DNA from: a virus
Strand: one strand, 5' to 3'
DNA length: 39,540 nucleotides
Virus record (IMG/VR): IMGVR_UViG_3300043772_002119
Location: 1 to 39,540 of that record
This document shows positions 14,458 to 30,127 of the stretch, one piece after another (within the stretch, counting starts at the first letter, position 1; every line of letters begins with the position of its first letter). The notes beneath the pieces were generated by a model, which was not told the origin of the DNA, searched no databases, and saw only the letters and a program-made list of their open reading frames with translations. The position numbers and the translations under genes were made by a program.

Positions 14458-15650
14458 TAGTCTATTCTAGCTCGCCGTCCTCCGATTTCAACAATTGTTC
14501 CAGCCTGAAGCCCCGCCGCCTCCGCCTCTTCAAGAGTGTTAAATTTAGGAATTTCAGGTTGCGTTTGTTCTGATCCTTCGGCTGGTTTTTGTGGCATCAG
14601 TCCATTAAATCGCTCAACCAAAACATCTCGCTCGCTACGAAGGAACTCGGCCTTGGCGACATTTTCTTCACGAATCGTCCCCTTGGTTCTGCCAGCATCA
14701 AAGTTGGCCTTACGAATTTCGGAGTCAGTTTTGTTGATTTCATCCAAAACGGAACGCGCCAATCCCTTTGTTTCCTCGTCCAATTTTGCTGATGCAATTT
14801 CTTTGTTTTTATTTTCCAAGTCTTTGCGTTTTGCCTCGCCAATTGCTTTGGAGAGTCCAAGTTGGTCAACCTTTGAAATGGTTCCAGTTTGTGGATCGGT
14901 TGTGAAAAATTTTGTGGCATCAATGCCTAGCGTAGCAGCCTCTTCTTGCTGTCCAATAAGCCAAGACTGTTGTTCTTGAACACCTCTTTCGGCTTGTGTT
15001 GCGCGAGACTCTTGTGCCCTTAAGGCATCTTCATACAGCCTCATTACAGCCTGTCTTGCCGCCGCATTTTCCATTCCATATTGAGACCCCATCAAGTTTG
15101 TTATCCTTTCAAGATCCCTTTCATTTGATGGATTAATTGGTTCGGAAAATATTGGATTACCAGCTTCATCGGTTCCTGTTTGAACACCCCCACGGATTGA
15201 ATCAAAAATAAATTTTGCTTCGTCCCTGATCTTTGCTTGCCTTGCCTTTTCCATTTCTTGCGCCTCACGCGCAAGTCCAACTTCTTCCATTCGTATAGCA
15301 GATTCTTCCATTTGTTGCCCAATTAATTGGTTACGAAGATAATCCTGCTGTCGCTTATCCCACTCTTCTTGCATCCTGATAGCTCTGCGGGTGGTTCCAG
15401 TGGGGCGACCGCCGTATTCAACAGGCATTTGTTCCACTGGCCCACCACGCTCAATAACTTCTGCTGCCTGAAATGCTTTTTGTTCTTCTGGTGTAGACGG
15501 CCCCCATCCCCAGTCTCTACGAATTCGTTCACCTGTAGTAAGCGGGGAAATGCCAGCTTCAACTGCGCGGCGGCGGCTTGCTGTATCAGGAGCAACCCCG
15601 AATCCAAGGCGTTGGCGATTTAGATCAGAATCTGTTAGTCCATTTGCCAT
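14457..15650 (-). CDS. Predicted virion-associated coiled-coil protein
   Basis: 397 residues, rich in E, R, Q and A, with long helical stretches between about 80 and 350 (EEWDKRQQDYLRNQLIGQQ, KRKDLENKNKEIASAKLDE) suited to coiled coils. It ends in FNTLEEAEAAGL ... GTIVEIGGRRARID, a short C-terminal module I have seen on various phage virion proteins, though its function is not known. It lies directly upstream of the giant gene with a one-base TAATG overlap, so the two are probably made and packaged together. No enzyme motif is visible. Confidence 0.55.
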   Translation of the reverse strand: MANGLTDSDLNRQRLGFGVAPDTASRRRAVEAGISPLTTGERIRRDWGWGPSTPEEQKAFQAAEVIERGGPVEQMPVEYGGRPTGTTRRAIRMQEEWDKRQQDYLRNQLIGQQMEESAIRMEEVGLAREAQEMEKARQAKIRDEAKFIFDSIRGGVQTGTDEAGNPIFSEPINPSNERDLERITNLMGSQYGMENAAARQAVMRLYEDALRAQESRATQAERGVQEQQSWLIGQQEEAATLGIDATKFFTTDPQTGTISKVDQLGLSKAIGEAKRKDLENKNKEIASAKLDEETKGLARSVLDEINKTDSEIRKANFDAGRTKGTIREENVAKAEFLRSERDVLVERFNGLMPQKPAEGSEQTQPEIPKFNTLEEAEAAGLQAGTIVEIGGRRARID

Positions 15651-15656
15651 AATATT

Positions 15657-16634
15657 TTAAACAGGAATATACCTTCCAGACTCTTCATCATACACAACAT
15701 CTCCGTTACCAGTCGGAATACGAACCATAGGTTGTCCGCTACCTGAAAATCCATAAAGGCTGGAAGGGGTGTTGTTATATGTGCGCCCACGAATTGGGTT
15801 GTTTCCTGTATAGTTGCTCCAAGAGCGTTGGGTCGTTTGACCGCCAGTGGTTGGCCGCGCTCGTTGTGCTGTTTGGGATTGTGCAACTGTTTGTTGCTGT
15901 GGTTGCGGCCCGCCACGTTGAGACGCAAAATAATCTTCATTTGCTTTTGCTATTCTTTTTGCCATCTCTCTTCCACCCTGTCTAGCCCGCTCAAGCCGAT
16001 CTTGTTGAGTAAGCTGCTCACGAACATTCTGTAACCTTGCTCCCATTTTTGGCATTTGAGCCAAACGCTGTGCAGCATCCTCTTGACCCCTTGTTGGATA
16101 AACCATTCCGTAGGCGGTTTGAACCCCAACTCTCTGGGGTGTAGCTGGCGCAACAGGGGTGGTTGGCTGTGGGGCGTATGCACCCCTGCCGTAAAACGCA
16201 TCAATATCGTCTGCCGTGGCTGGACGGGGATTTGCGGCGGCAACTTGCGCTGGCTGGGTACTCGGCATAGTTGGCGGCATTTGCGGAACCGTAGGATAAA
16301 TATCAAATCCACCGATTGGAGTTCCGCTCGGAAAGGTTGGAGTTACGGGAGTTGGGAGTTCTTGACGAGGCCCGCGCCCCTGTGCTGCCCCGCCAATTAA
16401 TGGCGTATTGGCAAGTGGATTAAGGCTCTGTAAAAATGGAACAGGATTTAGGTTGGGAGCTTGGGCTCCCTGTGGAATCGGGCGAATACCAGCAGGCATT
16501 GGAGGGTTGGCTCCCATTGACTGCCCCATAGAGGAAAACATACTGGAAAGTGCGCGACCAACCCTTGGCAACAATGGTTGCCCCAAAAAAGAGTTTTGAT
16601 CGGCAAATGAAGAGAATGGATTTTGCGGGGGCAT
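15657..16634 (-). CDS. Proline/glutamine-rich predicted structural protein
   Basis: 325 residues, low complexity and likely disordered: repeated PxxP and Q runs (PTVPQMPPTMPSTQPAQ), a basic helical middle (RLQNVREQLTQQDRLERARQGG) and a C-terminus ending DVVYDEESGRYIPV. It sits six bases upstream of the 397-residue gene and four bases after the 115-residue gene. Position and composition suggest a minor virion or ejectosome component. No family recognised. Confidence 0.5.
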   Translation of the reverse strand: MPPQNPFSSFADQNSFLGQPLLPRVGRALSSMFSSMGQSMGANPPMPAGIRPIPQGAQAPNLNPVPFLQSLNPLANTPLIGGAAQGRGPRQELPTPVTPTFPSGTPIGGFDIYPTVPQMPPTMPSTQPAQVAAANPRPATADDIDAFYGRGAYAPQPTTPVAPATPQRVGVQTAYGMVYPTRGQEDAAQRLAQMPKMGARLQNVREQLTQQDRLERARQGGREMAKRIAKANEDYFASQRGGPQPQQQTVAQSQTAQRARPTTGGQTTQRSWSNYTGNNPIRGRTYNNTPSSLYGFSGSGQPMVRIPTGNGDVVYDEESGRYIPV

Positions 16635-16637
16635 ATA

Positions 16638-16985
16638 TTAAGAATATGGAAATCTAAACGTTTGATTTTGATTCCACCAATTACCCTGTTTCATTTGACC
16701 GCCAAGTTCCGCTGGAACGCGCTGACCAGCAAACATTCCAAGCATTCCTCCACCAGCCGTAGATCCACCTGTAAATGTTGCGCCTTGTGGGAAAAATGAT
16801 GTGGCATAGGCTCCAGCGCGAAATTGTTGCATTGGGTCTGCTGCCATTGGGGAGCCTCCTTCCATTTGTAGTCCGCGAGAATACAGATTTCCAAACGCTT
16901 CTTCACGGGCGCGTTTTTGCCAGTCTTGCTGGCCCATAATGCCCATTCCTCCAGTCATAAAATTTCCTAGTCCAGATCCAACCAT
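16638..16985 (-). CDS. Small glycine/methionine-rich predicted structural protein
   Basis: 115 residues from ATG 16985 (MVGSGLGNFMTGGMGIMG), rich in G, M and Q. A TTG at 17024 would extend it into the upstream gene but has no Shine-Dalgarno. The chosen ATG lies 5 bases after the preceding stop (16991-16993). The middle has a short helix (QQDWQKRAREEAFGNLYSRGL). Probably a small virion protein of the same module; function unknown. Confidence 0.5.
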   Translation of the reverse strand: MVGSGLGNFMTGGMGIMGQQDWQKRAREEAFGNLYSRGLQMEGGSPMAADPMQQFRAGAYATSFFPQGATFTGGSTAGGGMLGMFAGQRVPAELGGQMKQGNWWNQNQTFRFPYS

Positions 16986-16990
16986 AATAA

Positions 16991-17965
16991 TTAAGTCATG
17001 TTTACGAGTCGGCGGGTAAGCCAAGGAGCGATTTGCATAACCCCTTCTTGCCCTGCGTTATACTCTTTTAGTTCGGCGTTGAGAAGTAAAATTGCACGAT
17101 CCATATAATATTGTCCGCGCTCGACATCAGCCTTCTCTTCGGCGTTGAGGGCCATAAGGCCAAGCTTGATGGCTTCCAGTGAGTCAGGATAAAGCGGATC
17201 ATTGTCGCTAATCGCCCAGCAATGCTTGCGCTTGAAGATGCCTTGTACCCCATCCCAATTGCGGTCTACCAGATAGCGGCGATAGCTGATTACCCTCTCG
17301 CCCGATTCGTATTTTGCCAAAGTGGTCGCCCCAGCCGATAGAGAGACAACGCCCGTGGTAGGGGTTTTCTCGACAGAATAGATCTCCGCAAATGTTTGGG
17401 TTGTGGTTTGGGTTCCATCTCCAAGGTCAAGACGAATTCCCTCCACTCGTTCTCCATCCACTGTAGAATAAATTTTATTCCCATTTGAGTCCTTTCCGCG
17501 AATCCAGATGTAGCTTCCTGCACACTCTGTTTCACTGCTAGATAGGGTAAGTTGGGACGGCGTCTCAATGTCCCGAAACGTAACAAACCCCTCGCCCATG
17601 TCTTGAATCGGGCCAAAATATTTCTCGTCAGCCTTACGGATGCCGCGACCTTGAGGAAGATACTGATACCACTCGCTCTGAACGGAAGTGGTTTTATAGC
17701 CCGCTTTACCCGCCCGAATACAGGTCTCCAGATGACGAGGGAGGGTAATGAACTTGTTGTCGTTGGCGTCCTCGTAGGCCGTGATCATGGCCTGAACCAA
17801 GGTGCCGACCCATTTCCCTTCCGAATGCACTCGCTCACAGAAGCGATTGATGTTGTTGCGGAGTTCGGCCTCTGCATCAAAACCCGCCAGATCGGGAGGA
17901 TCGGCAACTGGTTTTACTGATGTGGGGATTCTCTCGCAAGCGAGACCTAGACTTAATGAGGACAT
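16991..17965 (-). CDS. Predicted virion structural protein (neck or tail-tube candidate)
   Basis: 324 residues. N-terminal helix (AEAELRNNINRFCERVHSEG), a beta-rich centre (GSYIWIRGKDSNGNKIY, GIRLDLGDGTQTTTQTF), then a helical C-terminus (YPDSLEAIKLGLMALNAEEK ... YYMDRAILLLNAELKEYN). The helical end resembles that of podovirus head-tail connector or tubular proteins, but only in general character. It heads the five-gene virion block ending in the giant gene. ATG 17965 has 49 bases before the glycosyltransferase stop. Confidence 0.45.
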   Translation of the reverse strand: MSSLSLGLACERIPTSVKPVADPPDLAGFDAEAELRNNINRFCERVHSEGKWVGTLVQAMITAYEDANDNKFITLPRHLETCIRAGKAGYKTTSVQSEWYQYLPQGRGIRKADEKYFGPIQDMGEGFVTFRDIETPSQLTLSSSETECAGSYIWIRGKDSNGNKIYSTVDGERVEGIRLDLGDGTQTTTQTFAEIYSVEKTPTTGVVSLSAGATTLAKYESGERVISYRRYLVDRNWDGVQGIFKRKHCWAISDNDPLYPDSLEAIKLGLMALNAEEKADVERGQYYMDRAILLLNAELKEYNAGQEGVMQIAPWLTRRLVNMT

Positions 17966-18014
17966 TTTGCCCGCGAAGTTACCATGCCATCTCTAGAAGG
18001 TCAATAGCAGATTA

Positions 18015-18797
18015 TTACTTGAAAAGTAAATCTGCCGAAGCCCCGCTTCCCACCCATGGCAAAAACTGTTTAAGATCTTTTACGGGCCATTCCGTATTAT
18101 TCTGTAATCTTTCCCAATCCTCACAAGCATTCTCGTATCCGCCTTTGTATATACGTTGCTTCTGGGCCACTTGTTGCGGCGTCACCCATGCCATATGGAG
18201 AATGCTTCCGACTGTCGCAGACGTTGCCTTACGATCTAGCAGTTTGCCTTTATTTCCATTGAATACGGGAGGTTCATGGCGTTCCATCCAGAGTCCAACA
18301 CTATACCTCCAAGCCCGCACCCACTCATTGGCTCTATTCCCATAACCATCTGTGGATGTGGATATTACGTTGGGCCCAAGCATGTAGTCCATTTCAAACT
18401 GAGCGGTGTTGGCTTCGGGATTTTTCTCAAACAGATAAAGCAGTTCAATCATCTGATGGAACGTCCACAACTCATCACTATCCATTTGAAGCAAGACGCC
18501 ATCCTTCTTGAATGCCGTCAACGCCGCATTAATCATCTCCGTCTTTCCACCCCATTCCGCTTTGGAGTTAACCGTGATTCGGGGATGAGGTGCCAGTGCT
18601 TGTAGGAACTGGTTAGTACCATCATGTGATACTTTCCCAGTCTGATTGCCCATCCAAGCGGTATCTTTCTGCGGCATCGCCGCCCCCTCAACAATCGACC
18701 AATGCCAGTCGGTATCCCTTAATCGGCATAGTTCGGCAAACTGCGCCCCGATCCACGGAGAGCCATCAAGAACAATAGTAAAGATGTTTAGGGTCAC
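18015..18797 (-). CDS. GT2-like glycosyltransferase
   Basis: 260 residues. GKTEMINAALTAF followed by GVLLQMDSDELW is the nucleotide-sugar-binding region with a DxD motif of GT-A, family-2-like enzymes. The N-terminus (TLNIFTIVLDGSPWIGAQF) matches the first strand of that fold. GTG 18797 is chosen because it overlaps the upstream stop as GTGA (18794-18797); TTG 18809 is the alternative. It lies outside the plus-strand glycan operon, so it could act on a different acceptor, such as a virion protein encoded next to it. Substrate unknown. Confidence 0.65.
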   Translation of the reverse strand: MTLNIFTIVLDGSPWIGAQFAELCRLRDTDWHWSIVEGAAMPQKDTAWMGNQTGKVSHDGTNQFLQALAPHPRITVNSKAEWGGKTEMINAALTAFKKDGVLLQMDSDELWTFHQMIELLYLFEKNPEANTAQFEMDYMLGPNVISTSTDGYGNRANEWVRAWRYSVGLWMERHEPPVFNGNKGKLLDRKATSATVGSILHMAWVTPQQVAQKQRIYKGGYENACEDWERLQNNTEWPVKDLKQFLPWVGSGASADLLFK

Positions 18798-19018
18798 AGC
18801 CCGTCCCAAAGATCTCCCTGACCAAGCTCGTCTAGATATTCTCCAAAGGTCACCATCTTTTGGTCGTTGTAAACGTAGTCAAATAGATGATCTTTAAGTT
18901 CTCCCTCACCCAATTCAAGCTCAAAGCACAATGACTCAAAGTAAGCATCTTGAACCCGCGAGAGTTCATTAATAAAGTCTTTGACTTTAAAGATACTATC
19001 GTCTGGATGTGGTTTCAT
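18794..19018 (-). CDS. Small acidic unknown protein
   Basis: 74 residues, acidic, helical (FKVKDFINELSRVQDAYFESL, then FGEYLDELGQGDLWDGL). ATG 19018 overlaps the upstream stop as ATGA, and the stop overlaps the glycosyltransferase GTG. Nothing is recognised. Confidence 0.55.
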   Translation of the reverse strand: MKPHPDDSIFKVKDFINELSRVQDAYFESLCFELELGEGELKDHLFDYVYNDQKMVTFGEYLDELGQGDLWDGL

Positions 19019-19152
19019 TTTTCTTTGAACCCGCCCTTTTTGCTCTTCATCTTCTTATAGACCTTGGGGTCTATAGTAGATTTGGATTTAGGGCGGCTAG
19101 TGCCAGCCTTTTTCCTTGCGTTGATATTGTCGTATAGTCCTCGTTTTTTCAT
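19015..19152 (-). CDS. Tiny basic protein, GLYxNI type
   Basis: 45 residues, KKRGLYDNINARKKAGTSRP followed by a lysine-rich end. Very short basic proteins with a GLY/GLW-x-NI-x-x-x-x-K-x-x-G pattern recur in many phage genomes, usually among structural or packaging genes; their job is not known. ATG 19152 has AAGGAAAA upstream and is preferred to the TTG at 19227. It ends in an ATGA overlap. Confidence 0.6.
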   Translation of the reverse strand: MKKRGLYDNINARKKAGTSRPKSKSTIDPKVYKKMKSKKGGFKEK

Positions 19153-19156
19153 AGTA

Positions 19157-19825
19157 TTATTTTCCTTTCTTAACTGATTTGCTTCCGCTGCAACCCCACT
19201 TTTTTGAATCGATGTATAATTTCTCAACTTCTTCTTTTGTCATGTTATTTTTGATCCAATTGGCTCTCCATGATACAACACGAATATTTCCTTTAACATA
19301 ACCAAGATCTGGAATTATTCTGTCAAGGGATGGGCTATTACGCTTGTCCCCACAAGTAGAAATAGGAATGTTTAAAATTGGACATGTTTCAGGAACAATA
19401 ATATCATTCACATCCAAGTCAAACGGAAGTTTGTTTTGTTTTGCTCTTGCTCTAGCCGCGAACAACATGGACTTGTTAATGTTTTTTCGTCTGTATATTT
19501 TTGAATAAGCGTTTATTTTTTTCATGTTTTGAATTCGATAAGACGTTTCGCAGTGTTTGCAAGGACGACCCGTTCCATCGGTTCTATTGTAAAAAAGATC
19601 AGATGGCTTCCACTGTTTGCACTTACTACACCAAGTAACATCTCCGTCTGGCTTGTCTGGTCTTTTAACTTTGTGATGACACGAAAAACAACTTTTAATA
19701 GTGTGGATTATTTCCCTTCTAATTTTAATATGTTTCTTACATATTGGACATTCAAACATGTAAAGTGTTCTACCCTTCTCACGAAATGGGCCGCTAATGA
19801 TGTTTTTAGGCAAATCTAAGTTCAT
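19157..19825 (-). CDS. HNH-type endonuclease with N-terminal zinc fingers
   Basis: 222 residues. Four CxxC pairs (C26/C29, C46/C49, C66/C69, C89/C92) suggest two zinc-binding modules. The catalytic part reads SPSLDRIIPDLGYVKGNIRV ... RANWIKN (about 165-193), the signature of phage HNH nucleases related to homing or recombination endonucleases, with D168, N180 and N189 as candidate active-site residues. It is visibly richer in A+T than its neighbours, consistent with a mobile gene. It sits 4 bases before the tiny GLYxNI gene, so any insertion did not leave a broken gene there. Homing is possible but not shown. Confidence 0.75.
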   Translation of the reverse strand: MNLDLPKNIISGPFREKGRTLYMFECPICKKHIKIRREIIHTIKSCFSCHHKVKRPDKPDGDVTWCSKCKQWKPSDLFYNRTDGTGRPCKHCETSYRIQNMKKINAYSKIYRRKNINKSMLFAARARAKQNKLPFDLDVNDIIVPETCPILNIPISTCGDKRNSPSLDRIIPDLGYVKGNIRVVSWRANWIKNNMTKEEVEKLYIDSKKWGCSGSKSVKKGK

Positions 19826-19831
19826 AGATTA

Positions 19832-19984
19832 TTACCATACACCAAATTTAGCCATTACACCACCACTATTTTTTGATGCTTTTATTTCCTCGGCAAGACC
19901 ATTTGGCTCTGGAAAGTTTGTTCGGTGAATTTGGGTCACTTCGCCAATCGCCCTTAATTTTATTACTACGGGCGCAATAGGCAT
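19832..19984 (-). CDS. Candidate overlapping small gene
   Basis: A 50-residue frame starting MPIAPVVIKLRAIGE and ending GGVMAKFGVW. Its first two thirds overlap the next gene (19866-20096) out of phase. The last third fills the otherwise empty 19826-19865, and its TAA lies 6 bases before the HNH ATG. The composition reads like normal protein and it explains the only gap in this stretch. It may still be chance. Confidence 0.35.
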   Translation of the reverse strand: MPIAPVVIKLRAIGEVTQIHRTNFPEPNGLAEEIKASKNSGGVMAKFGVW

Positions 19985-20096
19985 CGGCACGGGGGCTACC
20001 GATGGGGCCAATCTTGCTCCCCTTCTCTCCGTATTTCACGGTTTTTTTACGCCCTGTTTCAGGGTTGGTTACAGTTTTGCTGAATTTCTTTTTCAT
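19866..20096 (-). CDS. Small basic conserved phage protein
   Basis: 76 residues: KKTVKYGEKGSKIGP ... DAYCARSNKIKG ... DPNSPNKLSRAKW, ending CRGNKSIKK. The pattern Y-C-A-R-S followed by D-P-N-x-P-N-x-L-S-R-x-K-W and a C-x-G-N-K-S tail is a frequently seen small phage protein of unknown function. The two cysteines and basic charge would suit nucleic-acid or metal binding. ATG 20096 overlaps the upstream nuclease stop as ATGA; the TTG at 20123 is rejected. Confidence 0.7.
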   Translation of the reverse strand: MKKKFSKTVTNPETGRKKTVKYGEKGSKIGPIGSPRADAYCARSNKIKGDWRSDPNSPNKLSRAKWSCRGNKSIKK

Positions 20097-20962
20097 TTTT
20101 TTAGGTTTCTCCAGTAGTTGCAATGGCCTCTAACACGGCAGTAGTCCGCGCAACGTTTATCTTCCCCAAGCCGTTCCTCAACAATACCTCCGATACTTTT
20201 GGCGTGAGACTCAGCCTGTAGTCGGTCTTCGTAAGTCCCATTGTTAACCGCTCGCTTGGCTCCCTTTTTCGGGAGGACGGCATAGAGGTCTGGGACGCGC
20301 CAACGTTCGGATTCGGTGCAGATCGGTATCTGGTCATCGGGAAGGTCTTTTGCTTGTTGGTGGAGATTAATCCGACTTTTGATATATGCAAATGTTTCTT
20401 CGGGCTTCCATGGATCTAACTTAATTTCCACAATAGCGCACTTGGGGTAATCAGCTTTGATTTTGGAGTCGCGCAACTTCCAGTCTTTCATTACAAGAAT
20501 GATGGCCGCACGTTTTACTGGATATCCATTGTGCCCAAGCAGGAGCGTGTTGATGGCGGCTTGTGCCGTCCAGTCAAACCTGTCATCGGACAAGGCTTTA
20601 TAAACGCTACTGACCTTGTAGTCATAGAGGACTTGCTCTTGCCTGTCATAGAGATCGATCTGTCCACCAAGCTTCACGCCATCTATATCCATATAGAAGC
20701 GCTCTTCCGTAAGGTAGCGTTCAGGATTGCGTTTGGCAATCTGTTCAAGAACGTAATGATTAGCTGTACCAAGCATTGTCCATACGCGATCCGAAGCATC
20801 CTCAGTAACCTTGTCTCCGTGGCGCTTCATCAACTCCCGAATCTTCGGAGGTTGGAATAGGCTGGTTGTTGTGATATCGGCCTCGCCAGCCGAATAGCTA
20901 GATTCGCTCACCAAATCCACAAAGGGCTGGGGTAGTCCGAATATATTGGTAATAGTAGGCAT
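20093..20962 (-). CDS. PD-(D/E)XK exonuclease, Cas4/RecB-like
   Basis: 289 residues. The nuclease core shows LGGQIDLYD (D103), VLYDYKVSS (D114, K116) and TAQAAIN (Q134), the order of RecB/Cas4-type enzymes. H69 near the N-terminus fits the early histidine. Four cysteines at 215, 271, 275 and 281 (CADYCRVRGHC) could hold an iron-sulfur cluster as in Cas4 and AddB. It probably trims DNA ends in phage recombination or replication. The neighbouring possible ssDNA-binding protein and SWIM protein support a recombination set. No CRISPR array or cas1/cas2 is present. Confidence 0.8.
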   Translation of the reverse strand: MPTITNIFGLPQPFVDLVSESSYSAGEADITTTSLFQPPKIRELMKRHGDKVTEDASDRVWTMLGTANHYVLEQIAKRNPERYLTEERFYMDIDGVKLGGQIDLYDRQEQVLYDYKVSSVYKALSDDRFDWTAQAAINTLLLGHNGYPVKRAAIILVMKDWKLRDSKIKADYPKCAIVEIKLDPWKPEETFAYIKSRINLHQQAKDLPDDQIPICTESERWRVPDLYAVLPKKGAKRAVNNGTYEDRLQAESHAKSIGGIVEERLGEDKRCADYCRVRGHCNYWRNLKK

Positions 20963-20984
20963 ATACCCCAGTGTGATTGTAGAC

Positions 20985-21146
20985 TTAGCGTTTCTTTTTC
21001 TTTTTGCTCATGCCAGCCTCGCTGAGTGCGATAGCAATGGCTTGTTTGGGATTCTTGACCTTCTGGCCAGAACTGCTTTTGAGTTTACCACTGCCATACT
21101 CGCGCATGACCTTACTGATCTTTTTTTCTCCTTTGGATTTTTTCAT
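20985..21146 (-). CDS. Tiny basic protein resembling DUF6496
   Basis: 53 residues starting MKKSKGEKKISKVMREY and continuing GKLKSSSGQKVKNPKQAIAI ... ALSEAG, ending in a lysine run. This matches from memory the short 'KVMREY ... GKLKSSSGKKV ... QAIAIALSEA' family (DUF6496), found in phages and bacteria with no known function. ATG 21146 lies 3 bases after the SWIM gene's stop. Confidence 0.7.
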   Translation of the reverse strand: MKKSKGEKKISKVMREYGSGKLKSSSGQKVKNPKQAIAIALSEAGMSKKKKKR

Positions 21147-21149
21147 ATA

Positions 21150-21404
21150 CTATGCTGCTATTAGTTGGTTGTTTGTTGGTTTCGGCGTTTGGACGCCCAA
21201 GAGTTTACAGAGATATCGGATGTGGAAGCACTCTTTGCGGAATTGATAGCCTGAACAAGTGCAGGAACACCCTGTGATATCCCCGATTTCATCGGTAGCG
21301 AACTCCACCAAGTAGTAGTCTTCGCGATTCGTCCGACTTTGAACGAGGAATGATCCCTTATCATGCGACAGAATTTCGATGCCGCGCTCTCGTCCATCAG
21401 TCAT
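21150..21404 (-). CDS. SWIM zinc-finger protein
   Basis: 84 residues from ATG 21404, overlapping the upstream stop by 8 bases. It carries C48-T-C50, then C59-F-H61 (CTCSGYQFRKECFHIRYL), the CxCx(n)CxH pattern of SWIM domains that bind zinc and often DNA or protein. Stand-alone SWIM proteins can act with recombinases and nucleases. Its position between a possible ssDNA-binding protein and a RecB-like nuclease suggests a role in DNA recombination, which is inference. Confidence 0.7.
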   Translation of the reverse strand: MTDGRERGIEILSHDKGSFLVQSRTNREDYYLVEFATDEIGDITGCSCTCSGYQFRKECFHIRYLCKLLGVQTPKPTNNQLIAA

Positions 21405-22023
21405 TGTTTGGTTCGGGGTTTTTGAGGGATTCGGCCTTGCTCGCCCCGAAACCAAGTTGTTCGGGGGTGTACGCAGTGATCGGCATAACTTGAATGAAGC
21501 CCTGTCTATCCGCTTGGATAAACATCGTCGTTGCTATCCCCTGACGGTGCTGTTCGGGAAGGTTCAACTCCACTGCAATATCGTTGGCCTTCTTGACGCA
21601 CAGACGCATCAAATTTGCCGCCTGACAGAGGAATTGCTTGGCGTCCTTGTCTGGGTGGGCTGGAGCCGTAACAACCTTTTCTGCGGGCTTCTGGGCCTGT
21701 TGTGGGGCACTCTGGGCTGCGGGTAGGCTGGAAGCGGGAACTCCAGCAGGCTGGATCTCCATGGAATCGGTCTTTTGCTTGGAGTTACCAGAGGCAATCA
21801 GCACTACAGACTTACCCACATATTGCTGGAACTTCGACGCAATGTCCTTGTTCTCAGTAAAATACACATGGGCCGCGCCATCAACGATTAATTCGATAAC
21901 GCACAACGAGTTGTTCTTCACCCACTTGGGTGGCGATTTGACGGCTACAAGTTTCGGCCCATTCTTGGCCAAGGTGAAGTGTGAGAGGACTGGTGCTTTG
22001 GGTTGGTTTGATTGATATGCCAT
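21397..22023 (-). CDS. Unknown protein, possible ssDNA-binding protein
   Basis: 208 residues. The first about 80 are beta-rich (PKLVAVKSPPKWVKNNSLCV ... HVYFTENKDIASKF ... VLIASGN) and could be an OB-like fold. A proline/alanine/glutamine linker (about 93-125) follows, then a helical section (AANLMRLCVKKANDIAVEL). The layout resembles some phage ssDNA-binding proteins, but the match is only structural in character. First gene of the leftward operon, with a promoter-like site 15 bases before its ATG. Confidence 0.4.
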   Translation of the reverse strand: MAYQSNQPKAPVLSHFTLAKNGPKLVAVKSPPKWVKNNSLCVIELIVDGAAHVYFTENKDIASKFQQYVGKSVVLIASGNSKQKTDSMEIQPAGVPASSLPAAQSAPQQAQKPAEKVVTAPAHPDKDAKQFLCQAANLMRLCVKKANDIAVELNLPEQHRQGIATTMFIQADRQGFIQVMPITAYTPEQLGFGASKAESLKNPEPNND

Positions 22024-22037
22024 ATAGGTAGATGTTC

Positions 22038-22064
22038 GTTATATCCGACAACCCAGCTTGTCAA
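22038..22064 (-). promoter_or_regulatory. Promoter-like site for the leftward operon
   Basis: On the minus strand TTGACA (22064-22059), a 15-nt spacer, then TATAAC (22043-22038). The hexamers match bacterial sigma-70 boxes 6/6 and 5/6, but the usual spacer is 16-18. The ATG of the first gene is only 14 nt beyond the -10, so the leader would be very short. Two similar sites share the same spacing (34440-34466, 36105-36131). Confidence 0.55.
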
Positions 22065-22070
22065 GCGTTC

Positions 22071-22107
22071 AAAAAAAAGCGGGGCCGAGTTTTTAGCCCG
22101 ACCCCGC
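22071..22107 (-). terminator. Rho-independent terminator, leftward
   Basis: On the minus strand GCGGGG (22107-22102) pairs with CCCCGC (22084-22079). The stem is extended by a few pairs with mismatches and is followed by eight T (22078-22071). It lies just upstream of the promoter-like site at 22038-22064. It would stop leftward antisense transcripts coming through the plus-strand fibre genes before the operon promoter. Confidence 0.6.
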
Positions 22108-22232
22108 CCCACACACATGAAAACAGGAAGGCGAATGCCCTCCAAGCAAGCAACTTATCATCTTTGTAAATCTATGCAAGCGGAAAATGATCTTGCCGCC
22201 ACCTTATTTTTGAGTTAGATTTTCGTGATTCT
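22108..22232 (+). other. Rest of the divergent intergenic gap
   Basis: No gene is assigned. A 33-codon frame at 22117-22218 begins MKTGRRMPSK but has no clear Shine-Dalgarno. No good promoter boxes are visible for the plus-strand gene at 22233. The region is A/T-rich near its right end (TTATTTTTGAG). Confidence 0.3.
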
Positions 22233-25200
22233 ATGGCTGAACAACCACCCCTGAACCGCTCCTATGTTATTTCGTATGCGGGCAATGACAGAGATTACCC
22301 TGTAATTGGATTAAGACTTGATCCCCGTGTTGCGGGATATCGGGTGCCAGAGGATCTAAGCCCGCATCCAGATTCCAAGCGGTATCCTAACCATGTATTT
22401 ACTGGATCACAGCCCTCCAATGGGGATGAACGGGTTACTCATGTCTATGAAATTCTTCCCGCTCCTTGGGTGCCCTTTACCCGCTACGATGATGATCTAG
22501 GCCCAGTTCAGGGACGTAGACGTTCGGTTAAAAATGAAGGTCAAGAAGCTGATTTAGCAGCAGATAAGAAGATTTCCTACGAGGGGCGCGAAGGATCAGC
22601 TATTGTTTCAAACGAAATCGAAGAGACTTGGTCGATTAAAACCGACGAAGATGGCAATTCTCTTTTTCCGATTAAAGATCGGGATTTTTATGATGCGTCT
22701 CGCGGGGCCGTTCAAGAGCGCCGTCAACTATTTGTTCCCACTGGAGAAGAGGTTGGATCTCTAGAGAATATCAACGGGGTTATTACTCAAACCTCCTACG
22801 AACCATACAATGAATTTCTTTCAGTTAAGATTGTCCAGACCTACAAAGTAGACGGGCCACAACTGGTTGGTTTGGCGACCGACAATGATGGACAGCTAGT
22901 CACGGTCACCACCCAACGCAAGGGATCGGATGGGTATGTACCTCCGAATCCTACGGCCACCAGAACAGTTGAGGTTAACCGCGAGGACGCCGAATCCCTA
23001 GTTGAACGGATTGTCGATACTCCCGAAATCTTTACCGCCAAGACTTTTTCGGTCGAACGTCCCGACCCCATTCCCCAAAAGTTTCGTGTAGCAGTTCCGC
23101 TTGAAACCGATCAAGAGATCGTGATAGGAAATGCGGAAATTCCCGTCCTGCAAGACGGAGATATTTCCCGCTCCGAAGAACAGCGAAATAAGTTTCTTAA
23201 AAGAGTTTCTTCCACCTCGCGGGATCAAACCGTTTTACCACAAACGCTTCTTCAAAAGTCTACCGACAACGACAGGCAAGAAGTTACCATTACTGAAACG
23301 CTTCAAGTTGGTAATACAAACGAGGTTCCCACGGCAACCAAGACCGTCGAAAGCGAAGCATTAGGGGATGGAAACTATGTAATTCGCAAGACCGAAGTTC
23401 CCGAAGTGTTTGCTGAAAAAACTTTTCGTAAAATAAAAGAAGATCTAACCCCACAAAAATTTAGGGGCGCACAAGAGAGTGAAGTATTTGAACAAACGGT
23501 TGAAGGTATTGCCAATTTTCCAGAATTAGCTTCTGGGGAATTTGAAAAATCCGAACAGCAGATTAATAAGTTTGTAAAAAGAATATCCGCCACCACGCGA
23601 TCAACAGAAGAGGAACAAGAGCTTACCGAGAGTGTTCTTACTTCTGATGGACAAATAGGGGTTAGAAGGCTCACCTTGTCTGATGGCCCACAAACAATAG
23701 AACAATCAGAGCTTGTTGTGGATGCCAGCGTTGAGGCATTGGGTGACGGAAGGACTGTTAAAACTGAGGTCAAGGTTCCAGAAGTTTTTGATGCCCGTGT
23801 TTTTTCGGTCGAAAAGCCAGACATAACTCCCGCAAAATTCAGGGTTAAAATTCCTGTAAAAACAGAACAATTTACAGAAAAAGGAACAGCCGCCGAACCA
23901 ACCCTTCAAGACGGAGACATTTCAAAATCAGAACAACAACAGACTAAGTATGTAAAAAGGGTTTCAGTTTCTTCAAGAGACCAAACAAAACTTCCGTCTT
24001 CTCTTGAACAAAGAGCCACCAATGAATTCAAACAGGTGGTCAACATTAAAGAAACGCTGCAAAACAGCGAAACATCAGTCACCCCAACAGCCACAAAGAC
24101 CGTAGAAAGCGAAGCACTTGGTGATGGAAACTACATTGTAAGGACTTCCGAGGTAGACGATTTTTTCAAAGCAAAATCTTTTTCCGTAGAATCGCCAGAC
24201 GTTGTTCCTGCAAAGTTTCGTTCAAAAACGCCCACCGAAACAACCCAAGAAATTGTCGAGGGAAATGCGGAACTCCCCACACTTGAAGAGGGGGATATTT
24301 CAAAATCAGAACAACAACAAGATCAGTTCCTTAAAAGGACTTCAACTACCACACGGGATAAAACACAGTTGCCCGCTTCTCTTTCCCAGAAGACAACAAC
24401 TAATGATGGGATTTTGGCAACAGTTACAGAAACCTTAAAAAGTAATGATACATCCGAACAGCCAAGCGCAACAAAGATAGTTGAAAGCGAGGCCATTGGC
24501 GATGGACTTTTTGTAGAGCGGATTACCGAATTGGCTAAAATTTTTGAAGGAAAGTCATTTTCTGTTGAATCTCCTGACGTTTTGCCAGCCAAGTTCAGGG
24601 CTAAACTCAAAACGACCACAGAGCAAAAAACTATAGAAAAAGAGGGGGCAGAAGTTCCCTCTCTTGATGATGATGAAATTTCAAAGTCCGAACAAGAAGT
24701 CACAGATTTTTTAGTCAGAGAGACAAAAGTTTTTAGAGATATACCAGAAGATGTTTCGCTGTCCCAAAAGATAACGAATGAAAATCTCCAACTAGCCACC
24801 GTAACTGAGAAGCTTCAAAAGACGGACACAATTGAACAGCCAACGGCCACCAAAACTGTCGAAAGCGAGAATCTTGGTGATGGTAATTACATCGTACGAA
24901 CAGTTGAGGTTGGAGAACTTTTTGACGCCAAGTCATTTTCCTCCGAAAAGACCGATACCATACCAGCAAAGTTTAGGGCACAAGTTCCCACTAAGACAGA
25001 GCAAAAAAACATTGCGGGACAGGCAATAATCCCAAATCTTTCAGGTAATCAGATTTCCGCAACCAACCAACAAATCAACGATAAGGTTTATAGAGAGATA
25101 ATTGCTTCAAGGGAAACATCATTCCCGCCACTGACTCAAAAAGTAACAACCAATGAAAGGCAACTAGCTACTGTTACCGAAAAAATTGGAAATAGCGACA

Positions 25201-26960
25201 CAAATGAGCAGCCATCCGCAACAAAAGAAGTTCAAAGCGAAGCTTTGGGAGATGGAAAATATTTAATTAGGACAACAGAAGTTGGTGAAGTATTTTCAGA
25301 AGCAATAACCAGAGTTTTAAAACCTGATTTAACACCAGAGAAATTTAGGGCAAAAAATGCTTCCACCACCAAAGAATTTACAGAAGCTGGTGAAGTTGAT
25401 GAAAATATCACCCTAGAATCTGGTGAGTTTGAAAAATCAGAACAACAAATTAATAAATTTGTAAAAAGAGTTTCAACAACATCTAGAGAGGTAGAAACAA
25501 TTTCTTCGCTTGAAGAAAAAATTTTAATAAGCAGCGGACAGCTTGCCACAAGAAGCCTTACACTTTCTAAAGATGAACAGGAAATTAATCCAGACGCCCT
25601 ATTGATTGATGGATCTATTGAGTCTCTTGGAGATGAAAGGACTATTAAAACTGAAGTAAGGGTTGATGAAATTTTTGCTGCGGAAGTATTTTCTATTAAT
25701 CGACCCGATCCAGCGCCAGAAAAATTCAGGGTAGATCTTCCAGAAAGAACCACCCAAATAACAGTTGAAGGAACGGCTGAAGAGCCCGCCCTTGAAAATG
25801 ATCAAATTTCCAAATCCGAGCAGCAACAAACAAAATTTACCAAAAGAGTAATAACTACCTCCAGAGAAGAAGCAGAGGACGGAACGCTTATTGGAAAAAG
25901 ATTAGGAACTTGGGGAAAAGAAACCGTAGTAGAGTCCTATAATGAAGATGATGATATTGAGCTAGGATATAAAATTTTATCCAACTCAAAAACACCGCTT
26001 GGTGGTGGAAAATTTTTGGGCGAAAAAGTGACGGTTGAAGAACCTCAACGCATCGAAGAAACAAGACAAGATCCAGAGACTGGAATTACATTCAAAATTA
26101 CAAAAGAACTTGTTGAAAGCAACTTCCAATTGCCGCCATACGATCCTTCTTTTACTGGTTCTCACGAACTCTCACCAATAGACCCAAACAATTCAGTTTA
26201 CATAAAAACAGAGGTAATTGACCTCCCAGAGAATGAAGTTTTTTACACTACAACAAATTTCACATTCCCAGATGAAATGGTATCGATAGATGTGATATGG
26301 GAACAGTCTACTGAAAAATCAAGCGAGCAAGGAAGAACCTATAACAATGATAGGATAATTGAGGAAAGTCTTAGCTGGAGAGCAAACTCACAATCAGGAG
26401 CCTCAAAAAACTTTAATGCATCACCAGAGTTTGATATTAAAAAAGGATACTCTGGACAATGCAAAACACAAGTTAATAGAACCTATCACTACGGATATCC
26501 AGAAGTTAATGAGGTCATTTTTAATGTAAAATCTGGTTATGGAACTCTTGTAATAAATGGAATAGAAGAACAAAAAACAAATTCTACTTCTATTGGAGGG
26601 AACGGTGATACAGCCTTGTCAAAAAATGTAGCATTCCAGTCTTCGCAAAATGTTGTTTCCAAGAGTTTCACGTTCGGGCCAATCATATGTGACGATTCGC
26701 TAGAATTGGAAAATACAGAGCCAGAAGGATATAACGAATTAACCCAACAGTCAAATGGCATACCAAACATTCCCGATGGTGCTGTAGGAGCGGCCTCATT
26801 TGTAATTCTTGATAAAGCAAAAGCACAAGCACTATTAAAGCTTCCGACTGATACAAGCAATCCAAGTGAAATCAAGAATGGAATAATAACAAATATACAG
26901 GTTCAAAAATGGAAATTCAATATATGGATAAAAGAGGTTTGGACTGTTTATCATCCATAA
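22233..26960 (+). CDS. Large repeat-built fibre/appendage protein
   Basis: 1575 residues. About 215 unique N-terminal residues (probably the attachment end) are followed by about eight copies of a 126-residue unit and then about 350 C-terminal residues rich in beta-strand-like and aromatic sequence. Each unit contains a pattern LGDG...EV...F..K.FS, then P-x-K-F-R, then S-E-Q-Q-x-x-K-F-x-K-R, ending near T-E-x-L-Q. The protein is acidic overall with almost no cysteine until the C-terminus. A long repeat array with distinct ends, next to two further appendage-like genes, suggests a tail fibre or a surface appendage; alternatively it is a giant decoration protein. No enzyme motif is seen. A/T content rises along the gene. 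Confidence 0.65.
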   Translation: MAEQPPLNRSYVISYAGNDRDYPVIGLRLDPRVAGYRVPEDLSPHPDSKRYPNHVFTGSQPSNGDERVTHVYEILPAPWVPFTRYDDDLGPVQGRRRSVKNEGQEADLAADKKISYEGREGSAIVSNEIEETWSIKTDEDGNSLFPIKDRDFYDASRGAVQERRQLFVPTGEEVGSLENINGVITQTSYEPYNEFLSVKIVQTYKVDGPQLVGLATDNDGQLVTVTTQRKGSDGYVPPNPTATRTVEVNREDAESLVERIVDTPEIFTAKTFSVERPDPIPQKFRVAVPLETDQEIVIGNAEIPVLQDGDISRSEEQRNKFLKRVSSTSRDQTVLPQTLLQKSTDNDRQEVTITETLQVGNTNEVPTATKTVESEALGDGNYVIRKTEVPEVFAEKTFRKIKEDLTPQKFRGAQESEVFEQTVEGIANFPELASGEFEKSEQQINKFVKRISATTRSTEEEQELTESVLTSDGQIGVRRLTLSDGPQTIEQSELVVDASVEALGDGRTVKTEVKVPEVFDARVFSVEKPDITPAKFRVKIPVKTEQFTEKGTAAEPTLQDGDISKSEQQQTKYVKRVSVSSRDQTKLPSSLEQRATNEFKQVVNIKETLQNSETSVTPTATKTVESEALGDGNYIVRTSEVDDFFKAKSFSVESPDVVPAKFRSKTPTETTQEIVEGNAELPTLEEGDISKSEQQQDQFLKRTSTTTRDKTQLPASLSQKTTTNDGILATVTETLKSNDTSEQPSATKIVESEAIGDGLFVERITELAKIFEGKSFSVESPDVLPAKFRAKLKTTTEQKTIEKEGAEVPSLDDDEISKSEQEVTDFLVRETKVFRDIPEDVSLSQKITNENLQLATVTEKLQKTDTIEQPTATKTVESENLGDGNYIVRTVEVGELFDAKSFSSEKTDTIPAKFRAQVPTKTEQKNIAGQAIIPNLSGNQISATNQQINDKVYREIIASRETSFPPLTQKVTTNERQLATVTEKIGNSDTNEQPSATKEVQSEALGDGKYLIRTTEVGEVFSEAITRVLKPDLTPEKFRAKNASTTKEFTEAGEVDENITLESGEFEKSEQQINKFVKRVSTTSREVETISSLEEKILISSGQLATRSLTLSKDEQEINPDALLIDGSIESLGDERTIKTEVRVDEIFAAEVFSINRPDPAPEKFRVDLPERTTQITVEGTAEEPALENDQISKSEQQQTKFTKRVITTSREEAEDGTLIGKRLGTWGKETVVESYNEDDDIELGYKILSNSKTPLGGGKFLGEKVTVEEPQRIEETRQDPETGITFKITKELVESNFQLPPYDPSFTGSHELSPIDPNNSVYIKTEVIDLPENEVFYTTTNFTFPDEMVSIDVIWEQSTEKSSEQGRTYNNDRIIEESLSWRANSQSGASKNFNASPEFDIKKGYSGQCKTQVNRTYHYGYPEVNEVIFNVKSGYGTLVINGIEEQKTNSTSIGGNGDTALSKNVAFQSSQNVVSKSFTFGPIICDDSLELENTEPEGYNELTQQSNGIPNIPDGAVGAASFVILDKAKAQALLKLPTDTSNPSEIKNGIITNIQVQKWKFNIWIKEVWTVYHP
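22880..25860 (+). repeat. Array of about eight 378-bp coding repeats
   Basis: The K-F-R motif recurs near 23078, 23457, 23834, 24212, 24590, 24967, 25344 and 25722, a period of about 378 bp (126 residues). The second and seventh units share a variant (GEFEKSEQQINKFVKR, then LTLS and a D-G-x-x-E-x-L-G-D stretch), indicating a higher-order repeat of five units. Units have diverged well beyond identity at the DNA level. Confidence 0.8.
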
Positions 26961-27011: not shown

Positions 27012-27662
27012 ATGAATAAAGAGCTTTTAGATATTCTTAAAAACACAAGGCCGTCTTGGGAAAAGGCTGAACAAACAACATTCGATAAATTTCAATCAAA
27101 GGTTAAAAGCATTGAAATCGAAATTGAAAATTTGCTTGCAAAAAAACAAACCGAGTCTTTTTCAATAACAAGCGAAACGACAGAAGATAAAAAACGAGTA
27201 CTACAACTACCACCAGATCCAGATGTTCCAGACACATTACAGATAGGAGAAGATCTGATTCCAGATCATCCTTGGAGAATAAGAATTAGAACCATACCAG
27301 AAACAGATCCTCCAGAATATGAATACTTAGTTATGGAAGGAACGCTTTATACTGGTATAGGATCTTGGGATAATATTGCTGTTGATGGTGTTGACGAGTG
27401 GAACGCAGCAGAAAATGGAAACATAATTCTTTTTGGAGAGGTTGTAAATGGAGCGTGTGCAAACGCTTCAATAAAAAATGAATCTACGCTTCCTGATCGT
27501 ATTGTATACGATGACTTGAATCAGACAGAATTCAATACCATAATTGGAAATTTATCAATAATTGGTGGTAGTATTTCTTTAAAACAAAATGCATTTCAAG
27601 ATTTTACACTGAGTCAATTCTGTGTTGATTCAAAACCTGCAATATACCCAATTTCAACCTGA
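27012..27662 (+). CDS. Unknown appendage-associated protein
   Basis: 216 residues. The N-terminal 60 form a probable coiled coil (DKFQSKVKSIEIEIENLL). The rest is beta-rich and acidic (WRIRIRTIPETDPPEYEYLV; ENGNIILFGEVVNGAC). ATG 27012 follows the large repeat protein by 51 bases, and its TGA overlaps the next ATG. It shares low G+C with its neighbours. Probably a partner or baseplate/fibre component of the repeat protein; not recognised. Confidence 0.5.
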   Translation: MNKELLDILKNTRPSWEKAEQTTFDKFQSKVKSIEIEIENLLAKKQTESFSITSETTEDKKRVLQLPPDPDVPDTLQIGEDLIPDHPWRIRIRTIPETDPPEYEYLVMEGTLYTGIGSWDNIAVDGVDEWNAAENGNIILFGEVVNGACANASIKNESTLPDRIVYDDLNQTEFNTIIGNLSIIGGSISLKQNAFQDFTLSQFCVDSKPAIYPIST

Positions 27663-28510
27663 TGGGAAAAACATCACACATTAATTTTTTTAATAATTGT
27701 TCCACCGTAACTTCTTATCCCCCAAGTGGAATAAATGGAACCCCAGCAGGAACTGGAGACTACGAATATTATTGTATAAAAATGCCAGTTGGAGAATGCC
27801 TTAGATTTTTTTGGGGCGTCAAAAAGTGGAAGCTATCGTATGATTATGATTTTCATGTACTAATAGATGATGACTCCACAGGTGAATCAAATGGCAATTT
27901 ACTCGGAAGCGAAATAACCAGTTCTGGAAGTGTTGAGCTTATAAGCGGGGATATTTATAATACAACCCAAAGTAATTTTATACATGACTCTTCAGAAAAA
28001 GAAACCGACTTGTTCTGTAAAAACATAGAAGCAGAAGGAGACTTGATAAATTATATATGGACTTATCCAGCAACCTACACTCGCAAAACCATTAAAAATG
28101 AAGGAACCGAAGAAGATCCCGAAATTGTTACAACAATTACTAACTTTCAAAGCAACCTGATTGCCCGATTTGGTGCTGGCGAAGCGTTACAAGACGATTT
28201 CTTACCAAGATTTTCAAAGACGCAAAACGAGTCAAATGAATTCTGGATTAATTTAATATTGCGCGTAACGGTTGGGTCTGGTGCTGGTGTTGGCGCTAAA
28301 GATTTTAACACACCAATTTCGCCTTACACAGAAAGCATATCAGCTTCGTTTAATTTTCTTGATTACGAAATTCCAATTGCATTAGGCGCTAATGCTGGAA
28401 CCATCCCAGAACGTGTTTTAGTGTCAGAGGTTTCTAATGTCGTTATAGAACCATACGAATGGTGGACATACGATGGAAAATATAATTCAGAAACTGGGCT
28501 TGAAAATTAA
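27662..28510 (+). CDS. Unknown beta-rich protein
   Basis: 282 residues, beta-rich and rich in N, S, T, G (YEYYCIKMPVGECLRFFWG; TTITNFQSNLIARFGAGE). It starts in a TGATG overlap, so it is coupled to the previous gene. It looks like a structural appendage protein; no family recognised. Its TAA shares the palindrome TTAA (28507-28510) with the stop of the opposing gene. Confidence 0.5.
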   Translation: MGKTSHINFFNNCSTVTSYPPSGINGTPAGTGDYEYYCIKMPVGECLRFFWGVKKWKLSYDYDFHVLIDDDSTGESNGNLLGSEITSSGSVELISGDIYNTTQSNFIHDSSEKETDLFCKNIEAEGDLINYIWTYPATYTRKTIKNEGTEEDPEIVTTITNFQSNLIARFGAGEALQDDFLPRFSKTQNESNEFWINLILRVTVGSGAGVGAKDFNTPISPYTESISASFNFLDYEIPIALGANAGTIPERVLVSEVSNVVIEPYEWWTYDGKYNSETGLEN

Positions 28511-28797
28511 ACTTTCGGCCTGACAAATACCATTTCTCTGGTTTTGCCACTGTAATTAATTTTTCTCTTGGTTGATTCCACCATATCTTTAGAGATAAGG
28601 TCGAACATTGCCTGTCTTGAAAGACCAACCTCTTTAGCGGCTTGGAGGGCAAGCTTCCATCCCTCTGCCTCCATATCTTCTTTGGTGGTCTTGGTTCGGG
28701 CTTCTTTGAAAGAGTCCCAGACACTATCCCAAGATGGGACTACAATTTTAGGAGAGGAGCCTTTTGTTCTTCCAGATGTGCTATGATGGGTTGCCAT
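28507..28797 (-). CDS. Small unknown protein, possible helix-turn-helix
   Basis: 96 residues from ATG 28797, which has AAGGA upstream; the frame stays open to 28857 but that part lies inside the phosphoesterase gene. The section WKLALQAAKEVGLSRQAMFD then LISKDMVESTKRK is compatible with a helix-turn-helix. The C-terminus (YSGKTREMVFVRPKV) is basic. It overlaps the upstream metallophosphoesterase by 58 bases. A regulatory role is only a guess. Confidence 0.5.
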   Translation of the reverse strand: MATHHSTSGRTKGSSPKIVVPSWDSVWDSFKEARTKTTKEDMEAEGWKLALQAAKEVGLSRQAMFDLISKDMVESTKRKINYSGKTREMVFVRPKV

Positions 28798-29528
28798 GTG
28801 TATGTTCCTTTTTTTACTTGAAATACGAGAAATCCGAAGTCTACTACGCCAGTGCATCGTCTAGCCCCGAAACGTGAACCAAATCCCTGAAGAGCAGGGG
28901 TGGTGATGGCCAGCCAGTCTGGGCCTCCCGCGAAGTTGTGGTAGTGGACATGAGAGCGGATAAAGATGTCTCCCTTGGGCTGTAACTCCTTTTCAGACCA
29001 TATGAGGTTCCATAGACGATCTCTGGCAACTCCGCTATGCCGACCATGGGGAATGCCGCTGGAGCCCGCTGGGTGGTGTTTAAGGTCAAATACAACACCC
29101 TCTACCTCCACCCACTCATGCTCTCCGATTGTGGCGTCTACGCGCTCTGCAATAATGTTCTCCCAGTCTTCTGAATCACCCGTATGGTAGGGCGTTCCTC
29201 TGGTGATAACAATCTTGCAGTTTTTGGATTTCGGGATTTCGCGGATAATCTTGACCGCCATATCGCACTGTTCCTCCATGTCGGTGGTGATCTGTTCTGT
29301 TCCGCCCGACTTCTTGCCCGTACCGTCCACAAGATCCCCGTTGATAAAGATGATATCGTAGGGGCCGTTTTTGCGGATGTTCTGGCTATACCAGTTGTAG
29401 TAGGCTTTGTTGGCATTGACCCAGCGTGACCGCTCTTCGGCTGGTTCTTCTGGGAGGTAGCCCTTCGGGGTTAACCCTACTTTGTGGCCGCAGTGGAAGT
29501 CCGATAGGACTGCTATTTTTTTGCTCAT
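28740..29528 (-). CDS. Calcineurin-like metallophosphoesterase
   Basis: 262 residues. Metal-site motifs in order: LSDFHCGH (D10, H12), INGDLVDG (D65), GTPYH (114-115), HH at 151-152 and SHVHYH (H193, H195). The expected third motif GNH[DE] is replaced by GTPYH, so the usual Asn is missing. It may hydrolyse phosphodiesters or nucleotides; several phages carry such an enzyme near nucleotide-metabolism genes. The start overlaps the DUF4406-like gene's stop as ATGA. Confidence 0.75.
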   Translation of the reverse strand: MSKKIAVLSDFHCGHKVGLTPKGYLPEEPAEERSRWVNANKAYYNWYSQNIRKNGPYDIIFINGDLVDGTGKKSGGTEQITTDMEEQCDMAVKIIREIPKSKNCKIVITRGTPYHTGDSEDWENIIAERVDATIGEHEWVEVEGVVFDLKHHPAGSSGIPHGRHSGVARDRLWNLIWSEKELQPKGDIFIRSHVHYHNFAGGPDWLAITTPALQGFGSRFGARRCTGVVDFGFLVFQVKKGTYTWQPIIAHLEEQKAPLLKL

Positions 29529-30127
29529 AGAGAGGTTGCTTGGTTACAGAGATCTAAACACCGCGCATAGCCGCAGATATCGGCCACGCTGTCACGATGG
29601 CGCGGTGAATTGGTGAGTCTGGAAAGCTTGACCGCAATCATGCACATGGCGATTTGTTGCGGGGTCACATTGGTTCCAAGAATAGCTCCCCACATCTTGG
29701 CTTGTTTAGTAAAGTCTTCAATGGGGCTTCCGTAGTCGGTTTGGCGATCATAGGAAGTAAGGCGCTTGGCAATGTCGCACACATCTTCTTTATCTAACCT
29801 AACCATTGATGGGTAGATACGCAAGGGTTTTTCTAGCCATTGGGCTACAGCGACCTCCGCTCTCGCTCCTTTGGACTTCTCCCACTTGGGAAGAAGTACC
29901 AACTCATCGCACTCAAAGACTGCATCAATATCCCTTTTGGCACACTCCTCAATGAATTTGCTGTCCATTTGTGAGTTGTGGGGATCTAGCCCAAGATCTT
30001 GATCCATCCTTGCTGGATTGATCACTTTGTGCCCCGCCTTCATTAGGGTTTCTTCAGCCTCAAAAAAAGCAGGATGGTTGAGGTTCTTGTGACCGCGCAT
30101 AGGGCCACAGATGTATACTGTAGTCAT
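29525..30127 (-). CDS. DUF4406-like protein fused to a DUF6378-like domain
   Basis: 200 residues. The N-terminal half (VYICGPMRGHKNLNHPAFFE ... INPARMDQD ... VLLPKWEKSKGARAEVAVA) matches DUF4406, a nucleoside 2-deoxyribosyltransferase-like fold, in which G-P-M at the start and the E in ARAE are conserved. The C-terminal half (VTPQQIAMCMIAVKLSRLTN then RDSVADICGYA) matches the short DUF6378-like domain found next to phage nucleotide enzymes. It probably acts on or senses nucleotides or modified bases; the reaction is not known. Start and stop lie in tight junctions. Confidence 0.65.
   Translation of the reverse strand: MTTVYICGPMRGHKNLNHPAFFEAEETLMKAGHKVINPARMDQDLGLDPHNSQMDSKFIEECAKRDIDAVFECDELVLLPKWEKSKGARAEVAVAQWLEKPLRIYPSMVRLDKEDVCDIAKRLTSYDRQTDYGSPIEDFTKQAKMWGAILGTNVTPQQIAMCMIAVKLSRLTNSPRHRDSVADICGYARCLDLCNQATSL

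Follow-up and report, generated by a model that had tools for sequence, protein, structure and literature searches.

What kind of protein carries eight long tandem units in a phage, and how did its array arise? The question is raised by an ORF of 1575 aa (22233-26960, plus strand) in the virus record IMGVR_UViG_3300043772_002119, whose 39,540 bases are the whole stretch of DNA analysed here (the window). We infer that the product, termed the fibre-like protein below, probably serves as an adsorption fibre or tail appendage in a tailed phage whose genome is about 70 kb. In this reading the protein has a conserved base, an extensible stalk of beta domains and an exchangeable tip, and its gene belongs to a hypervariable island.

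Repeat units of the fibre-like protein

The motif KFR occurs in the protein at residues 283, 409, 535, 661, 787, 913, 1037 and 1164, at spacings of 126 residues (five times), 124 and 127. Ungapped self-comparison of the protein scored 973 at offset 126, 891 at offset 252 and 571 at offset 378, with at most 45 at offsets unrelated to the period. The 126-residue repeat with eight units, originally predicted from the sequence, is thus confirmed by both the motif spacing and the self-comparison diagonal at 126 and its multiples. The eight full units are 124-127 residues long and far above chance. The count needs one correction, as profile comparison detected two additional half-units: one closes the N-terminal domain and the other opens the C-terminal domain. 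No mutual homology was detected between the two halves of a unit (hhalign probability 0.7-0.8%).

The N-terminal base domain (residues 1-266, 22233..23030) is the most conserved part of the family and includes the first, divergent half-unit at residues ∼176-266 (E 4.7e-5, probability 68%). The units follow on the same plus strand. Five of them are of class A: unit 1 (residues 267-392, 23031..23408; 80% identical to unit u1 of the related locus L002), unit 3 (23787..24164; 85% to L002 u5), unit 4 (24165..24542; 82% to u6), unit 5 (24543..24920; 71% to u7) and unit 6 (24921..25292; 73% to u8). Unit 2 (residues 393-518, 23409..23786; 74% to L002 u4) carries the variant boundary DLTPQKFR and is of class B1; unit 7 (25293..25673; 61% to L002 u9) carries DLTPEKFR and is of class B2. 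Unit 8 (25674..26051) belongs to a terminal class with a divergent second half and groups with unit u7 of locus L005 (SH-aLRT 100, 59% identity). The C-terminal domain (residues 1274-1575 plus stop, 26052..26960, plus strand) starts with the second half-unit (E 3e-7) and is the proposed tip.

Identity among the eight window units is 26-58% at the protein level, and Tandem Repeats Finder reported no DNA tandem repeat in the array, the DNA copies being too diverged. The array therefore does not consist of highly similar repeats, and we consider it old.

Origin of the five-unit spacing

Within the protein, unit 2 is most similar to unit 7, and unit 7 to unit 2. Their identity of 52% exceeds that to the other window units (26-37% for unit 2, 28-38% for unit 7), so they are more alike than the rest (52% versus 26-38%), as originally predicted. 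The further claim, of a five-unit block duplication later than the basic unit, is about evolutionary origin and does not bear on the functional readings. It is consistent with the similarity of units 2 and 7 and with a self-match at offset 629 that spans residue 432 to 603. Such a duplication should also pair unit 8 with unit 3, but unit 3 is not the closest unit to unit 8 (35% identity, versus 38% to units 1 and 4).

Comparison with related loci also argues against the block. In L002 we found one-to-one orthologues of window units 1-7 (u1, u4, u5, u6, u7, u8 and u9; 61-85% identity), with one additional B-A pair between units 1 and 2; the last four L002 units (u10-u13) have no window orthologue, window unit 8 being of another class. 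Units 2 and 7 each have orthologues of their own: L002 u4, L005 u2 and L012 u2 in class B1, and L002 u9, L005 u3 and L012 u3 in class B2. In a tree of 68 units, unit 2 grouped with its three orthologues and L003 u1 with moderate support (SH-aLRT 81), and unit 7 grouped with its three orthologues, again with moderate support (SH-aLRT 87). In a larger B-class tree L020, L023, L024 and L033 each had their first B unit apart from the second, and the first ones were placed in the group of unit 2 (support 89/85), the branching around unit 7 being without resolution. A tree constrained to unite the window and L002 copies of units 2 and 7 as a clade was worse by 24.9 log units and was rejected (p-AU 0.024, 46 units); this test followed inspection of the first tree and is to be weighed accordingly. 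Another selection, of 68 units from all classes, gave p-AU 0.079. Units 2 and 7 thus appear to belong to separate classes common to other phages, and the block duplication is highly improbable.

The two B units are adjacent in L005, L012, L020, L023, L024 and L033; in the window four A-class units stand between unit 2 (B1) and unit 7 (B2). Given an old B1-B2 pair and the lack of pairing between units 8 and 3, the five-unit spacing is most simply, and best, read as four A-class units lying within that pair, either by insertion here or by loss elsewhere. More generally, an apparent higher-order repeat can arise from units placed between members of old classes, without block duplication.

Relatives share the base and differ in unit number

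A profile of the N-terminal domain detected this domain in 65 loci on viral contigs, all of uncultivated phages, mostly at 54-93% identity. A profile scan with the unit alignment alone failed, since no stretch is sufficiently conserved. The N-terminal profile found no relative in representative bacterial genomes, and none was found in plasmids or cultured phages. The domain family is unnamed and, although common among environmental phages, did not appear in the collection of cultured phages that was searched.

Among the 65 loci the number of units ranges from 0 to 13, and protein length mostly from about 580 to 2230 residues. Near-identical relatives differ as well, a length variation of the kind seen in Periscope proteins: L007 and L008 have identical N-termini (100%) with six and eight units, the difference being a clean gap of ∼753 bp (two units) with 93%-identical DNA on both sides, and L005 and L009 (97.4% N-terminal identity) have seven and two units. 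The window and L002, with N-termini 96.1% identical, have 8 and 13 units. Assembly collapse is an unlikely cause of the varying number, because the units differ too much from one another. The units evolve under purifying selection (dN/dS 0.03-0.25, taken only where synonymous sites are unsaturated). The same base with 0-13 units provides a natural series for asking whether stalk length affects adsorption, such as to hosts that differ in their surface layers.

C-terminal exchange within a hypervariable island

One terminus of the protein is far more conserved than the other, as in modular fibres: the C-terminus of the window protein has 22-35% identity to its relatives (∼33% to the nearest), compared with mostly 54-93% for the N-terminus, and as a single query it found no relatives. 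Close relatives show exchange of the tip with sharp breakpoints. L008 and L065 are 90-100% identical over units 1-7 and then unlike in unit 8 and the C-terminus, with no match after the seven units until past the island. In the L007/L008 pair the C-terminus is replaced beyond the two-unit gap and the shared DNA. DNA of the window and L002 is 82-89% identical on both flanks of a non-matching part that extends from 25.84 to 28.51 kb and covers the C-terminus and the downstream ORFs. The C-terminal ends and the downstream genes diverge fast or are swapped together.

The gene is best read as sitting in a hypervariable island whose borders are shared. The left border is a small divergent gene (21397..22023, minus strand); of 57 testable loci, 54 have it as the upstream neighbour. 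The right border is a convergent gene of a calcineurin-like phosphoesterase (28740..29528, minus strand; Pfam PF00149), which lies on the same, downstream side in 51 of the 65 loci, 546-4561 bp from the fibre-like gene.

Two plus-strand ORFs lie between the fibre-like gene and the right border. The first (216 aa, 27012..27662) has relatives downstream of the fibre-like gene in L050, L047, L051, L052, L062, L040 and L028, and the first five of these loci also have the C-terminal class of the window; its product is probably a partner protein. The second (282 aa, 27662..28510) is island cargo with one weak relative, in L018, and no DNA match in L002 or L003. In twelve loci examined the cargo is often a protein of about 220-290 residues followed by one of about 390-700 residues. 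A gene that matches tail-fibre PHROGs is found just upstream of the fibre-like gene in L004, a distant relative, where a single small ORF separates the two.

The cargo of some phages includes a sugar-isomerase-like gene with Pfam FdtA and Polysacc_synt_C matches above cut-off (L012 14553-16006, minus strand; also in L014, L030, L048 and L063). A 343-residue cargo gene of some phages is read as a putative glycosyltransferase, a reading that no profile confirms. Possible targets of these island genes are glycans of the host surface or the fibre itself. Small cysteine-rich proteins end the cargo in L025 (7649-8086), L007 (8856-9317) and L022 (6341-6829), all on the plus strand; the L025 protein has a weak DUF6171 match.

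The phage and its other genes

Several related records, 66-73 kb in length, may represent nearly whole genomes. One such record, G001, encodes a recognizable terminase, DnaB-like helicase, tail-fibre protein and tailspike-like protein. Since the phage group thus has an ordinary fibre and tailspike-like cluster elsewhere, the fibre-like protein need not bind the receptor. A clear tail-nozzle protein was not identified in the 72.8-kb relative.

In the window, gene size, gene order and inspection of the sequence point to candidate portal, scaffold, capsid and adaptor genes, the Phage_scaffold match being sub-threshold. A protein of 2487 residues (6994-14457, minus strand) with no Pfam or PHROG match adjoins genes read as those of the adaptor and internal virion proteins; its counterpart in G001 (15032-24262) has about 3,000 residues. 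The minus strand also carries a possible glycan-modifying gene (18015-18809) with a weak Glycos_transf_2 match under the Pfam cut-off, and a gene (29525-30127) whose single product combines DUF4406, deoxyribosyltransferase-like in PHROGs, with DUF6378.

Predicted structure and similarity searches

AlphaFold2 single-chain models predicted the units and the C-terminus to be all-beta, with confidence: pLDDT was about 83-93 for units 1 and 2, and its mean was 87.3 for unit 8 with the C-terminus. The base domain was modelled more poorly (pLDDT <50 at residues 76-137). The low pTM of the whole model (0.40) combined with good unit pLDDT is what is expected of beads on a string.

Searches of Pfam, PHROG, PDB and cultured phages produced no meaningful relatives of the protein, in agreement with the original prediction of a fibre-like repeat protein without a named family. 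When 31 units were compared with Pfam, there was one weak match to Big_9 (E 0.052); nothing was significant among BACON or Ig-like (Big, I-set, FN3) profiles, and BACON was not among the families listed. Weak PHROG matches to the repeats (phrog_27818 and others) are without function, and none passes as a stand-alone stretch. Trust levels for structure matches were Z 8 and Foldseek E 0.001. Among PDB matches no fold of the nozzle, fibre or pore type was prominent, and the prolyl-oligopeptidase and pore matches in Foldseek were non-significant. The C-terminal model did match A0A6J5RCY2 of an uncultured Caudovirales phage in BFVD (Foldseek E 7.3e-17, probability 1.00), a protein of 728 aa without assigned function; the match is partial (TM-score by query 0.49, rmsd 10.0).

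The C-terminal domain is predicted to form two very long beta-hairpins with strands of 14-27 residues, and the best PDB matches of these hairpins are mostly beta-barrel pores (non-significant, Z up to 5.9). Along with the 72.8-kb relative, which has no other identified nozzle candidate, these features would suit the tail nozzle, or the tube of the tail tip, in a podovirus-like phage, with a barrel built from the hairpins of several subunits and with repeats that decorate it outwards or lengthen it. We regard such a nozzle as unlikely: the pore matches are all under the trust levels (Z <8; Foldseek E >0.001, no better than 0.0069 for pore- or nozzle-type matches), a fast-changing C-terminus swapped with downstream genes would be unusual in a channel, and a number of units from 0 to 13 fits a ring poorly.

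Some 60-residue stretches of the model can be superposed loosely on single Ig domains (Z about 3.4-4). Small tandem beta domains of this sort, in a phage group with other fibre and spike genes, might instead belong to a whisker or capsid decoration that attaches to surfaces such as mucus, particles or cells but does not determine specificity, comparable with multi-Ig Hoc proteins. A whisker is quite improbable here, since exchange of the C-terminus with the downstream genes points to a tip with partner proteins and since the window gene is distant from the head genes.

Proposed adsorption by an extensible fibre

The adsorption-fibre reading is preferred because the base is constant, the units number 0-13, the ends are swapped, the island borders are the same and the models are all-beta. 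The gene with tail-fibre matches in L004 and the low dN/dS of the units also speak for it. We count against it that no homologue of known function was found at any level and that the gene lies in the window between DNA-metabolism and lysis genes, away from recognized tail genes. The ordinary fibre and tailspike-like cluster of the group weighs against it as well, as does the 72.8-kb relative, where no clear nozzle protein was identified. In the proposed mechanism the N-terminus would dock on the virion and the units would build a rod with joints; the tip, which would contact the host, would consist of the C-terminus and the downstream proteins. Units would be gained or lost by recombination within the array, with a change of reach, and recombination would also swap tips with the dock retained. 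Arm length and tip seem to change rapidly.

Comparison with known systems

Two known systems come closest. Tandem BACON arrays of crAss-like phages were proposed to aid host binding; they have grown by domain duplication, and the C-terminus is poorly conserved in one lineage (PMC6949934). The likeness to the crAss-like BACON ORFs lies in tandem beta domains within a phage protein (PMC6949934). The window units differ in having no convincing Pfam match, BACON included, in varying from 0 to 13 copies among close relatives, and in forming classes common to several phages in a partly fixed order.

How far the binding domain of Periscope proteins projects from the bacterial surface is set by their domain number (PMC8201768). 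As in these proteins, the number of tandem folded domains varies here among close relatives and would set the reach of a terminal binding domain (PMC8201768). Periscope proteins are bacterial, with a C-terminal wall anchor and highly similar repeats (PMC8201768), whereas the window protein is viral, would be anchored by an N-terminal base and has repeats 26-58% identical.

By analogy, the fibre-like protein may work like BACON arrays or Periscope proteins, though by sequence its units belong to neither family. A more specific proposal, which we put forward tentatively, is that this phage family tunes its adsorption reach by gains and losses of entire beta-domain units, drawn from old and distinct classes, in the stretch that joins a constant base to a replaceable tip. 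The protein might then be a viral counterpart of Periscope proteins, with a class order that is partly preserved and positions along the rod that may have roles of their own.
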